A stretch of DNA of 64,000 nucleotides from Couchioplanes caeruleus (lineage in GTDB: Bacteria; Actinomycetota; Actinomycetes; Mycobacteriales; Micromonosporaceae), in assembly GCF_023499255.1 (NCBI RefSeq), contig NZ_CP092183.1, positions 6,320,501 to 6,384,500 of the forward strand. The letters are read 5' to 3'. Below are positions 2,110-6,921 of the stretch, one piece after another; the first letter of the stretch is position 1; each line of letters begins with the position of its first letter. The notes under the pieces are model-generated. The model was not told the DNA's origin. It did not search any database and worked only from the letters and a program-made list of their open reading frames with translations. The position numbers were made by a program, and so were the translations under genes.

Positions 2110-2757
2110 ATGGATCTGCGCCACGACCCGCTGCGCTGGCAACCGTCCCAGCCCTCCCCCGAACCGTGGCGCACCCCCGGCGCGTGGCCCGACGCCATGC
2201 CCGGCGGAGCGGGCCCGCAGATACCCGGCTGGCTCGAGGAGCGCCTGTTCGACCAGCGCATCGTGATGGTCCGCGGCCCGCTCACCGCACAGGCGGCCTC
2301 GGGCATCGCCGCGGCCCTGCTCACCCTCGAGGCGGCCGGCCCGGAGCCGGTGCAGCTCCACGTCGCCAGCGGCGGCGGCGAGCTCAACGCGGCCCACGCG
2401 GTCATCGACGTGATCGACGCGATGGCGGCCCCGGTGCACGCGGTGGTCACCTCCGAGGCGGGCGGCGCGGTCCTCGCGGTCCTGGCCGCGGCCACGAAAC
2501 GCTCGGCCTACCGGCACGCCCGCTTCCGGATGACGGAACCCCGGGCGGCCGGCGTCATGGGTACGGCCGACGAGGTCGCCGCGGCGGCCGGGCAGCACCT
2601 CCGGGAGCTGGAGGAGGTGGTGCTGCGGCTCGTCGAGGTGACCGGCCAGACCCGCAGCCGGATCGAGGACGACCTGTCCGCCGGCCGCGTGATGTCGGCG
2701 GCGGAGGCGCAGGAATACGGCCTCATCGACGAGGTCATCGCCGGCAGGACCCCGTAG
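2110..2757 (+). CDS. ClpP-like protein lacking catalytic Ser and His
   Basis: 215 residues with the ClpP/crotonase fold signature: VQLHVASGGGELNAAHAVID corresponds to the ClpP strand with the conserved 'NSPGG' turn, and SAAEAQEYGLIDEVI is the typical ClpP C-terminal helix. Where active ClpP has GQAASMG, this protein reads SEAGGAV, putting glycine (Gly119) at the nucleophile position. Where ClpP has RIMIHQP it reads RFRMTEP, so Thr142 replaces the histidine. The aspartate equivalent (Asp188) remains. It therefore looks proteolytically inactive. An N-terminal proline-rich stretch of about 40 residues precedes the fold. ATG 2110 was chosen because it has GGAG upstream; the frame is open further upstream but that part is not ClpP-like. 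A regulatory subunit mixing with active ClpP rings is inference. Confidence 0.8.
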   Translation: MDLRHDPLRWQPSQPSPEPWRTPGAWPDAMPGGAGPQIPGWLEERLFDQRIVMVRGPLTAQAASGIAAALLTLEAAGPEPVQLHVASGGGELNAAHAVIDVIDAMAAPVHAVVTSEAGGAVLAVLAAATKRSAYRHARFRMTEPRAAGVMGTADEVAAAAGQHLRELEEVVLRLVEVTGQTRSRIEDDLSAGRVMSAAEAQEYGLIDEVIAGRTP

Positions 2758-2768
2758 GGTACAACAAA

Positions 2769-2792
2769 ACGGCAGGCCAGGTGGCCTGCCGT
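2769..2792. terminator. Bidirectional terminator between convergent genes
   Basis: A perfect 10-bp stem (ACGGCAGGCC/GGCCTGCCGT) with a 4-base loop lies between the ends of the ClpP-like gene and the L11-like gene. T-rich tracts follow on both sides (TTCTGTT rightward, TTTTGTT leftward), so it can stop transcription from both directions. Confidence 0.85.
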
Positions 2793-2833
2793 TCTGTTCA
2801 GCTCAGGGAGCCGTCGCCCTCGCCGGAGCGAGA

Positions 2834-3259
2834 TTACTCGGCGACCTTGACGCCCATCGAACGCGCGGTGCCGGCGACGACCTTGACGGCCGCCTCCAGG
2901 TCGTTGGCGTTCAGGTCGGGGAGCTTGCGCTCGGCGATCGAGCGGATCTGCTCGCCGCTCAGCGTGCCCACCGTCTGGGTCAGCGGGTTGGACGCGCCCG
3001 ACTGGATGCCCAGAGCCTTGCGGATCAGGAAGCTCGTCGGCGGCGTCTTGTAGGTGAGCTGGTGGCTGCGGTCCTCGAAGACGCTGACGATGACGGGGAT
3101 GATCTCGCCACGGTTCTTCGCCGTCGCCTCGTCGTACTCCACCTTGACGGCGCGCATGTTGGCGCCGGTCGGGCCGAGCATCTTACCGAGGTCCACCATC
3201 GCGGCGTTACCCGCCTCAAGCGCGAGGGTCACCTCATGGGTCTTCTTCTTGGGCGGCAT
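2834..3259 (-). CDS. Divergent second ribosomal protein L11 (L11 paralogue)
   Basis: 141 residues recognisable as L11 over the whole length. The C-terminal rRNA-binding half is well conserved (KLPDLNANDLEAA, AGTARSMGVKV), and YKTPP and FEDRS are also retained. The N-terminal domain is not normal: the near-invariant APPVGPALGQHGVNIMEF block is replaced by MVDLGKMLGPTGANMRAV (residues 21-38), removing the paired prolines known to line the thiopeptide-binding pocket with 23S rRNA. It stands alone between a ClpP-like gene and a transglycosylase gene, not in the usual secE-nusG-rplK-rplA cluster, so it is most likely an extra copy. ATG 3259 has AAGGAG upstream. It could provide alternative or drug-resistant ribosomes; that role is inference. 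Confidence 0.85.
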   Translation of the reverse strand: MPPKKKTHEVTLALEAGNAAMVDLGKMLGPTGANMRAVKVEYDEATAKNRGEIIPVIVSVFEDRSHQLTYKTPPTSFLIRKALGIQSGASNPLTQTVGTLSGEQIRSIAERKLPDLNANDLEAAVKVVAGTARSMGVKVAE

Positions 3260-3339
3260 TGCGCAAAAGCTCCTTAGTGTGTGCTGCACGGGCCGAAGTC
3301 AGGAGCTCGCCAGCATCATCAACGCACGACAACCCCGAG

Positions 3340-3369
3340 ACTTTACTACCGGGCTCGTTCACGGGTCAA
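3340..3369 (-). promoter_or_regulatory. Putative promoter of the L11 paralogue
   Basis: On the minus strand TTGACC and TAAAGT are separated by 18 bases, a good match to a vegetative -35/-10 pair, about 80 bases upstream of the L11-like start. The remaining leader of roughly 70 bases could hold an autoregulatory structure; none was obvious. Confidence 0.55.
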
Positions 3370-4425: not shown

Positions 4426-6291
4426 ATGCAGACCCGCACCGACCTACGCAACGTCGCCATCATCGCCCACGTGGACCATGGCAAGACAACCCTGGTCGAC
4501 GCCATGCTGCGCCAGGGGAGCCAGTCCCACGCGCGGGGCGAGATGGCCGACCGCGTCATGGACTCCATGGACCTGGAGCGGGAAAAGGGCATCACCATTC
4601 TCGCCAAGAACACGGCGATCAGCTACCGGCCCGCCGACGGCGAGCCCGTCACGATCAACATCATCGACACCCCCGGCCACGCGGACTTCGGCGGCGAGGT
4701 CGAGCGCGGCCTCACCATGGTCGACGGCGTCGTGCTGCTCGTCGACGCCTCCGAGGGTCCGCTGCCGCAGACCCGCTTCGTGCTGCGCAAGGCGCTGCAG
4801 GCCAAGCTGCCGATCATCCTGGTGATCAACAAGGTGGACCGGCCCGACGCCCGGATCAAGGAGGTCGTCGACGAGACGTACGAGCTCTTCCTCGACCTCG
4901 ACGCCGACGAGCACCAGATCGAGTTCCCGATCGTGTACGCCTGCGCCCGCGACGGCATCGCCTCCCTGACCCAGCCGAAGGACGGCACGGTCCCCGAGGA
5001 CAGCACCAACCTCGAGGTGCTGTTCAGCACAATCCTGGAGACCATCCCGGCCCCGACCTACACCGAGGGCGCGCCGCTGCAGGCGCACGTCGTCAACCTC
5101 GACGCCTCCAACTTCCTCGGCCGGCTCGCGCTGTGCCGGGTGCACGAGGGCACCATCCGCAAGGGCCAGACCGTGGCCTGGTGCAAGACCGACGGCACGA
5201 TCAGCAACGTGCGCATCTCCGAGCTGCTGATCACCGAGGGCCTCGAGCGCAAGCCGGCCGAGAGCGCCGGCCCGGGCGACATCATGGCCGTCGCCGGCAT
5301 CGCCGACATCATGATCGGCGAGACCCTGGCCGACGCGGAGAACCCGATCCCGCTGCCGCTGATCAGCGTCGACGAGCCGGCCATCTCGATGGTCCTCGGC
5401 ACCAACACCTCGCCGCTGGTCGGCAAGGTCAAGGGCAGCAAGGTCACCGCCCGCATGGTCAAGGACCGGCTGGACCGCGAGATGATCGGTAACGTCTCCC
5501 TGCGGGTCCTGCCCACCGAGCGCCCGGACGCCTGGGAGGTCCAGGGCCGCGGCGAGCTCGCCCTCGCCATCCTGGTCGAGCAGATGCGCCGCGAGTCCTA
5601 CGAGCTCACCGTCGGCAAGCCGCAGGTGGTCACCAAGGTCATCGACGGCAAGATCCACGAGCCGGTCGAGCGGCTGACCATCGACGCCCCCGACGAGTAC
5701 ATGGGCGCGATCACCAGCCTGCTGTCCACCCGCAAGGGCCGTATGGAAGAGCTGATCAACCACGGCACCGGCTGGCTGCGCATGGAGTGGCTGGTCCCGG
5801 CCCGCGGCCTGATCGGCTTCCGCACGGAGTTCCTCACCGAGACCCGCGGCACGGGCATCATGCACCACATCTTCGAGGCGTACGAGCCGTGGTTCGGCGA
5901 GCTGCGCACCCGCCAGAACGGCTCCCTGGTCGCCGACCGGGCCGGCGTGGTCACCGCGTTCGCCATGACCAACCTGCAGGAGCGCGGCCAGCTCTTCGTG
6001 GAGCCCACCACCGAGGTGTACGAAGGCATGATCGTCGGCGAGAACAGCCGCCAGGACGACATGGACGTCAACATCACCAAGGAGAAGAAGCTCACCAACA
6101 TGCGCTCGTCGACCGCCGACGAGACGGAGAAGCTGATCCCGCCGCGCAAGCTGTCCCTCGAGCAGGCCCTCGAGTTCTGCCGCGAGGACGAGTGCGTCGA
6201 GGTCACCCCCGCGGCCGTCCGGATCCGCAAGGTCGTGCTCGACCAGCAGACCCGAGGCCGCGCCGCCGCGCGCCGCAAGCACCAGCAGTAA
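4426..6291 (+). CDS. typA: Ribosome-associated GTPase TypA/BipA
   Basis: 621 residues, the normal length for TypA/BipA. G1 is AHVDHGKTTLVDAML, the switch/G2 region has RGEMADRVMDSMDLEREKGI, G3 is DTPGHADFGGEV and G4 is NKVDR. EF-G-like domains II, III and V follow, then the BipA-specific C-terminal domain with STADETEKLIPPRKLSLEQA. BipA binds the ribosome in a GTP-dependent way and supports 50S assembly and growth under stress. ATG 4426 is chosen because MQTRTDLRNVAIIAHVDHG matches family N-termini; the region upstream in frame is not conserved. It is divergent from the transglycosylase gene. Confidence 0.97.
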   Translation: MQTRTDLRNVAIIAHVDHGKTTLVDAMLRQGSQSHARGEMADRVMDSMDLEREKGITILAKNTAISYRPADGEPVTINIIDTPGHADFGGEVERGLTMVDGVVLLVDASEGPLPQTRFVLRKALQAKLPIILVINKVDRPDARIKEVVDETYELFLDLDADEHQIEFPIVYACARDGIASLTQPKDGTVPEDSTNLEVLFSTILETIPAPTYTEGAPLQAHVVNLDASNFLGRLALCRVHEGTIRKGQTVAWCKTDGTISNVRISELLITEGLERKPAESAGPGDIMAVAGIADIMIGETLADAENPIPLPLISVDEPAISMVLGTNTSPLVGKVKGSKVTARMVKDRLDREMIGNVSLRVLPTERPDAWEVQGRGELALAILVEQMRRESYELTVGKPQVVTKVIDGKIHEPVERLTIDAPDEYMGAITSLLSTRKGRMEELINHGTGWLRMEWLVPARGLIGFRTEFLTETRGTGIMHHIFEAYEPWFGELRTRQNGSLVADRAGVVTAFAMTNLQERGQLFVEPTTEVYEGMIVGENSRQDDMDVNITKEKKLTNMRSSTADETEKLIPPRKLSLEQALEFCREDECVEVTPAAVRIRKVVLDQQTRGRAAARRKHQQ

Positions 6292-6327: not shown

Positions 6328-6444
6328 GCAAGGCCGTGACAGAGGCCCGCGCCCACCGCCAGGTGACCGCGGGCCTCTCCCGTCTCGGAGCCTCACATCC
6401 CAGATGCGTCCCGCGTCCGTCCCGCGCCTCGCGTCCGTCCCGCG

Positions 6445-6606
6445 CCTCGGAGCGTCGCCACGTCTCCGGCGTCCCGCGCCTCGGAGCGTCGCCACGTCTC
6501 CGGCGTCCCGCGCCTCGGAGCGTCGCCACGTCTCCGGCGTCCCGCGCCTCGGAGCGTCGCCACGTCTCCGGCCTCGGAGCGTCGCCACGTCTCCGGCGTC
6601 TCGCGC
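6445..6606. repeat. 34-bp tandem repeat array
   Basis: The unit beginning CCTCGGAGCGTCGCCACGTC recurs at 6445, 6479, 6513 and 6547 (period 34), then at 6572 after a 9-base deletion. The copies are nearly identical, which suggests recent expansion. The array lies in the 6292-6921 gap between typA and terC; no gene is recognisable in that gap. A second array (19-bp unit, three copies from 6768, GTCGCCCGGCCTCGTCGGC) lies in the same gap. Confidence 0.85.
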
Positions 6607-6921
6607 CTTGGGGCTTCTCCACGTCTCGGGGCGTCTCGCGGGTTCCCGCATCGCCCCGATCGTTCCCCGCGTCAGGCTTTCCCTGCGTCGGGTGCTTGCC
6701 TGGCTGGCCGCTTTCTGCCCACGCCCTTGGGCCGCGGCCTTGCTCGCCCGCGCCTGGGCTCGCCCGCGTCGCCCGGCCTCGTCGGCGTCGCCTGGCCTCG
6801 TCGGCGTCGCCCGGCCTCGTCGGCGTCCAGCGGTCGCGGGCCTTGCCTGCCTCACGTGCCTCGCCGGCTTTGCCTGCCCCGCTGGCCTTGCCTGCCCCGC
6901 CGGTGGCGGGCGCTCGCTTGC

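Follow-up and report, generated by a model that had tools for sequence, protein, structure and literature searches.

An apparent genus-wide exchange of a normally near-invariant ribosomal component in Actinoplanes

The window analysed here, a stretch of 64,000 nucleotides from the genome of Couchioplanes caeruleus, encodes a divergent ribosomal protein L11, termed L11B, which is best read as the sole housekeeping L11 of this genome and as a member of a distinct class that has displaced the canonical rplK product. The canonical gene is absent from its usual place, a single L11 is found in the genome, L11B forms a conserved class under purifying selection, and both forms coexist in genomes elsewhere. 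The near-invariant proline loop of uL11, a contact surface for thiopeptides, is gone across a whole genus in which no canonical copy was found and in which the relevant 23S rRNA segment is unchanged, and this constitutes a natural experiment on the role of the loop. Related genomes with L11B alone, with both forms, or with the canonical form offer ready comparisons, and a takeover by L11B, if true, would plainly exemplify the replacement of a housekeeping ribosomal protein by an accessory one. In the open-access literature searched, which holds few of the subscription journals, neither the L11B class nor the loss of rplK from Actinoplanes was found to be described.

The L11B gene and its surroundings

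The features of the window considered here are as follows.

2834..3259, minus strand: L11B, divergent ribosomal protein L11 (uL11) of 141 amino acids, the sole L11 gene found in the genome
3170..3208, minus strand: residues 18-30 of L11B (NAAMVDLGKMLGP), the rewritten thiopeptide-pocket block, from alignment and structure model
3260..3339, minus strand: 5' leader of L11B, mostly conserved across aligned Actinoplanes-clade sequences
3270..3275, minus strand: ribosome-binding site AAGGAG of L11B, read from the sequence and conserved in the upstream alignment
3340..3369, minus strand: sigma-70-like promoter TTGACC-18-TAAAGT of L11B, a promoter-like site
2768..2793, no strand assigned: perfect 11-bp inverted repeat with an AGGT loop, between the convergent ClpP-like gene and L11B
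2110..2757, plus strand: ClpP-fold neighbour, context outside the claimed part
4426..6291, plus strand: typA/bipA neighbour, context outside the claimed part

The initial annotation had described a full-length L11 at 2834..3259, and the 141-residue product indeed carries both Pfam domains of the two-domain L11 fold, i.e., PF03946 (N-terminal; E 6.5e-13, 48.7 bits against a cut-off of 32.9) and PF00298 (C-terminal; E 1.2e-27, 96.5 bits against a cut-off of 21.4). L11B differs from canonical uL11 (rplK; PF03946 plus PF00298, TIGR01632) in that it stays below the equivalog cut-off of NCBIfam TIGR01632 (133.4 versus 141.85 bits), in that its proline loop is gone, and in that its gene lies outside nusG-rplK-rplA. 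Close relatives are named "uL11 family ribosomal protein" or "50S ribosomal protein L11" in databases. Purifying selection on L11B is evident from a median dN/dS of 0.167 over 730 of 741 codon pairs, the other 11 having been dropped. As the only L11 found, and one under purifying selection, L11B is presumably incorporated into 50S subunits.

Translation is taken to start at the ATG at 3259, which is preceded by the conserved ribosome-binding site, and a GTG at 3289 is a possible alternative. The claim that the gene has its own promoter is borne out by the promoter-like site TTGACC-18-TAAAGT, found once where 0.1 would be expected. Of 17 upstream regions from the Actinoplanes clade (12 rows of the alignment shown), 15 contain TTGACC and 8 contain TAAAGT. 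A structured leader was considered and discarded, since its folding z of 0.53 is nothing unusual; an Rfam scan gave two matches, both far under the gathering threshold. Regarding the proposed terminator of its own, the perfect inverted repeat at 2768-2793 exists; it is common to L11B and the convergent ClpP-like gene and might be a bidirectional terminator for both, and a terminator scan reported none near L11B, the repeat included.

As had been stated, neither rplA nor nusG is a neighbour of L11B in the window. Instead, the gene is flanked in 40 of 40 Actinoplanes-clade loci by the ClpP-fold gene on one side and by typA/bipA on the other, and 35 of the 40 also have an SLT gene on the side of typA. 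By eye, the ClpP-fold neighbour at 2110..2757 appears to lack the catalytic Ser and His of ClpP. Just downstream of typA, positions 6418-6903 of the window hold GC-rich tandem repeats (a 34-bp unit in about six copies, plus shorter arrays).

Absence of canonical rplK and distribution of L11B

A profile search of the genome, a single contig of 8.42 Mb given as 100% complete, gave one match for each of the two Pfam L11 domains, whereas the same searches recovered L11 in 14 of 14 control genomes. At the rplA locus the order is secE-nusG-rplA-rplJ-rplL, and the 129 bp between nusG and rplA hold no rplK. A gap in the assembly does not account for this, as the genome is one contig in which nusG and rplA are continuous, and likewise in the 30 Actinoplanes genomes read, all of which lack rplK between nusG and rplA (gap 66-129 bp; the genome of the window was read twice within this set). 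In contrast, all of the 20 loci that were fetched around a canonical L11 in other Micromonosporaceae have this gene between nusG and rplA.

Throughout the genus Actinoplanes, L11B is the sole L11 match (67 of 67 genomes, and likewise G343; identity 86-100%), and named genomes with the divergent form belong to Actinoplanes, Paractinoplanes, Winogradskya, Couchioplanes, Pseudosporangium, and Mangrovihabitans. The initial annotation had taken the gene for a second L11 and had called for a search for the canonical rplK; none was found. Since L11B is the only L11 found in the genome and all 67 genomes of the genus carry it as their only L11 match, the in-genome paralogue is abandoned. The idea of an alternative L11 without the thiopeptide-pocket prolines survives at the level of the family: when genomes are sorted by score and by identity to the window protein, L11B occurs beside another L11 in 19 of 354 Micromonosporaceae (no L11 match in 3) and in 57 of 297 Pseudonocardiaceae. 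Together, these are 76 of 651 genomes, three further ones (G934, G967, and G172) with two L11 matches, none scoring as L11B, being left out. Another 12 of the 297 Pseudonocardiaceae possess L11B alone, named ones including Allokutzneria, Actinoalloteichus, Sciscionella, and Herbihabitans. A third form is present in 11, and 4 were without any match. The L11B sequences were read in 19 of 19 two-copy Micromonosporaceae. In the Pseudonocardiaceae they were read in 12 of 12 genomes with a sole copy and in 17 of the 57 with two copies; for 19 of these 57, reading showed the second copy to be canonical.

Among the 30 best matches read in a class-wide sample of 394 genomes, L11B was seen only in the genome of the window, G593, and G551; the coordinates in G593 are identical to those in a Phytoactinopolyspora genome. 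Two L11 matches each were obtained for Microtetraspora, Stackebrandtia, and Phytoactinopolyspora. Phage and plasmid collections contain matches in 19 and 78 records, respectively, with less than 60% identity among the matches listed.

The nusG-rplA junction lacks rplK in all 12 sole-L11B Pseudonocardiaceae and in G343, and a canonical-type L11 occupies it in every genome examined that has two copies (19 of 19) or the canonical form alone (20 of 20); the copy in G988 looks cut short. On an RplA+NusG host tree the sole-L11B Pseudonocardiaceae correspond to five changes by parsimony, of which strongly supported branches force just one, and a single clade of these hosts was rejected (p-AU 0.0034, quick tree). 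As the sole-copy hosts do not form one clade, the neighbours of their L11B genes differ between genera, and their junctions are devoid of rplK, we conclude that loss of rplK occurred on more than one occasion within the Pseudonocardiaceae and separately in the Actinoplanes lineage.

The third form (PASVGQALGPHGLN) is found at the normal place of rplK in 11 Pseudonocardiaceae genomes and falls within the canonical clade of the tree (rows L256-L266, i.e., G762, G874, G805, G921, G955, G855, G891, G834, G826, G907, and G795). It lies between nusG and rplA in 10 of 10 cases in the junction survey and 11 of 11 by sequence reading, and it has lost the proline pair in situ, at the same column as L11B and with an identical gap of one residue. 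Its scores (1.3e-41 to 2.9e-38) meet that of the weakest L11B (G946, 1.4e-41), and the two were separated by reading the sequences of all 11 genomes.

The rewritten block and the thiopeptide site

The initial annotation was right in that the rRNA-binding half of L11B is the better conserved one and in that the APPVGPALGQHG block is rewritten and has lost its paired prolines; the shortening, estimated at about three residues, is one residue. All four prolines of the canonical loop are gone, three by replacement and one by deletion. None of the four is present in 62 of 62 L11Bs, whereas 31 of 31 canonical L11s have three or four (eight of them just three). A predicted structure places a helix at residues 21-31 of L11B versus 26-31 of a canonical control, so the proline loop seems to be exchanged for a longer continuous helix according to this model.

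Thiostrepton binds between the N-terminal domain of uL11 and 23S helices 43/44, its thiazole rings stacking on uL11 prolines; resistance results from changes at A1067, at A1095, or at these prolines, and eukaryotic ribosomes are probably resistant through their own uL11 (excerpt of PMC5960728). L11B would be expected to bind thiopeptides less well and is probably insensitive to them; its carriers may be resistant, and thiopeptides may have been the selecting cause. A compensating change of the rRNA was looked for and not found in Actinoplanes: the 41-base 23S segment that contains A1067 and A1095 has its usual form in the genome of the window (2 copies), in G007 and G343, and in 15 of 15 further Actinoplanes. 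Therefore, no second sign of thiopeptide selection is seen in the genomes tested. Of the 12 sole-copy Pseudonocardiaceae, 10 gave a 23S match, and A1067 differs only in Herbihabitans; in the whole search 22 of 80 genomes were without a match, including the 11 third-form genomes (their many contigs suggest drafts), and these carry no information. In Herbihabitans rhizosphaerae (G361), whose sole L11 match is L11B, the single 23S match (C23:2159-2199) reads TTGGAAGC..GTAAAAG, changes that we take to be A1067G and U1097A in E. coli numbering.

Alternative L11s that published work connects with thiopeptide immunity are known from the micrococcin P1 and thiocillin clusters (TclQ/TclT), and to this extent they resemble L11B. 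TclQ is incorporated in place of L11 according to the excerpt of a review (PMC6804068), and the action of the thiocillin paralogues TclQ/TclT in the ribosome is given as not experimentally determined in a section of another source (PMC10704990). TclQ-type proteins stand beside a housekeeping rplK, a situation found in other L11B genomes but not in that of the window. The precedent invoked in the initial annotation, a proline-altered L11 serving immunity in a thiopeptide cluster, differs further: the one micrococcin-cluster L11 compared (L372 9001-9396, Macrococcoides plasmid pBac115) keeps APPVG, in the form SPAPPVG with a T at the last loop proline, whereas L11B is without all four. Thiopeptide-cluster L11s therefore do not all lose the paired prolines, and immunity needs no such change as in L11B. 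The plasmid gene also sits among thiopeptide genes, whereas the immediate neighbours of L11B in the window encode ClpP-like, SLT, and TypA proteins and no thiopeptide biosynthesis; among recurrent neighbours of accessory L11Bs no thiopeptide genes were recognised by eye.

Another likeness is that of the rpoB(R)/rpoB(S) pair of Nonomuraea ATCC 39727, an altered second allele of a drug target in an antibiotic-producing actinomycete (excerpt of PMC6784132); Nonomuraea retains both alleles, whereas the original L11 of Actinoplanes was not found. In Psi-footprinting, duplication of rplK, its phylogenetic incongruence, or its location in a cluster are signs of producers of protein-synthesis inhibitors, and the screen singles out rplK in some actinomycetes, whereas its table gives no rplK signal for Actinoplanes friuliensis; the portion of that account available (PMC9290621) mentions neither an L11B class nor a loss of rplK. 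Philipimycin is a thiazolyl peptide of Actinoplanes philippinensis, judging from a title cited in PMC11406533. On the other side, the vector used to engineer A. teichomyceticus L-27 is described as one for screening actinomycetes by thiostrepton resistance (excerpt of PMC3897980), a use which suggests a thiostrepton-sensitive Actinoplanes and counts against resistance. When Actinoplanes and their relatives are tested with thiopeptides, the uL11 sequence should be checked as well as A1067 methylation.

Possible course of the replacement

The explanation that we hold, somewhat better than even, to account for the whole is that an accessory, thiopeptide-insensitive L11B arose and then repeatedly displaced the housekeeping rplK. 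L11B probably originated as an accessory L11 in antibiotic-rich actinomycetes, and the order, accessory first and sole copy later, is read from its distribution. Its rRNA-binding C-terminal domain would have been retained while the N-terminal proline loop became a continuous helix, so that thiopeptides, which insert themselves between uL11 and helices 43/44, should find a poor binding site; we infer from the loss of the proline surface that such an accessory L11 would be drug-insensitive. Because some ribosomes stay poisonable while the sensitive copy is there, and because L11 is non-essential in several bacteria, carriers could then drop rplK from nusG-rplK-rplA. The Actinoplanes lineage would have undergone such a takeover, and the host tree indicates more than one in the Pseudonocardiaceae. 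A bolder version, which we entertain with some doubt, sees a mobile drug-insensitive ribosomal protein that invaded two actinomycete families and repeatedly overthrew the housekeeping copy there, leaving whole genera including Actinoplanes to translate entirely with a GTPase centre whose L11 switch is redesigned, with intrinsic insensitivity to L11-targeting thiopeptides and possibly a reset stringent control.

The initial annotation had offered drug resistance or an altered stringent response as what L11B may serve, and the main rival follows the latter: L11B would have been selected for changed factor binding or stringent control rather than by drugs. The proline loop is the meeting place of translation factors, Rel signalling, and L11, and its change might retune GTPase activation or (p)ppGpp synthesis, as in the relC L11 mutants of Streptomyces; relC encodes L11, and relC mutants are without ppGpp or actinorhodin (excerpt of PMC6784132). 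Between the sole copies of Actinoplanes and those of Pseudonocardiaceae, conservation is highest in the block (0.923, compared with 0.764 in the N-terminal domain and 0.626 in the C-terminal one), a pattern to be expected if it is a functional interface, and a thiostrepton-sensitive A. teichomyceticus, if the vector use in the excerpt cited above is so to be understood, would fit as well. By itself, however, this rival leaves unexplained why many genomes retain both forms, and we consider it unlikely, if the most serious competitor. More improbable still is a neutral takeover, in which an accessory L11 of no special benefit happened to suffice and drift removed the original. The dispensability of L11 in some bacteria may make such a loss cheap, and the drug link is itself presumptive; but rplK was lost in separate hosts, second copies are kept in two families, and the new motif of L11B is sharply conserved.

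That the native rplK was simply relocated and diverged fast in Actinoplanes, L11B and canonical L11 being orthologous and two-copy genomes local duplications, has very little to recommend it, as the trees already disfavour it. A quick tree of 105 L11 proteins gathers all 62 L11B rows, which come from several families, into a single clade with a long stem (1.36, 100 SH-aLRT) apart from the canonical L11s, and the canonical L11s of the both-form genomes G327, G351, G330, and G350 are likewise apart (G327 and G351 in the 105-row tree). In a careful tree of 61 rows, from which the long branch L289 was excluded, the Actinoplanes copies (99/98), the sole copies of Pseudonocardiaceae (96/94), and the second copy of G327 join (99/93). 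What relocation can draw on is that shared descent of the Actinoplanes and other Micromonosporaceae L11Bs was not rejected: p-AU values for a Micromonosporaceae-only L11B clade were 0.182 and 0.191, and 0.759 and 0.699 when this constraint was placed on the quick 105-row tree, where the constrained tree scored better. Transfer of L11B across families into Actinoplanes is suggested by the trees, and a vertical history inside the Micromonosporaceae was not rejected.

Directly 3' of, or overlapping, the accessory L11B gene, 14 of 39 two-copy loci encode a small CGNR-zinc-finger-like protein (L117, L118, L120-L122, L124, L126, L128, L129, L131, L132, L267, L282, and L284; a weak match in L115, 29% and overlapping L11B, is not counted). 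These comprise 11 of 19 loci in Micromonosporaceae, 3 of 17 in Pseudonocardiaceae, and 0 of 3 in others. Two of the three proteins tested gave no Pfam match and the other one matches the CGNR zinc finger (2.6e-6); possibly, this small protein is a regulator of the accessory L11B.
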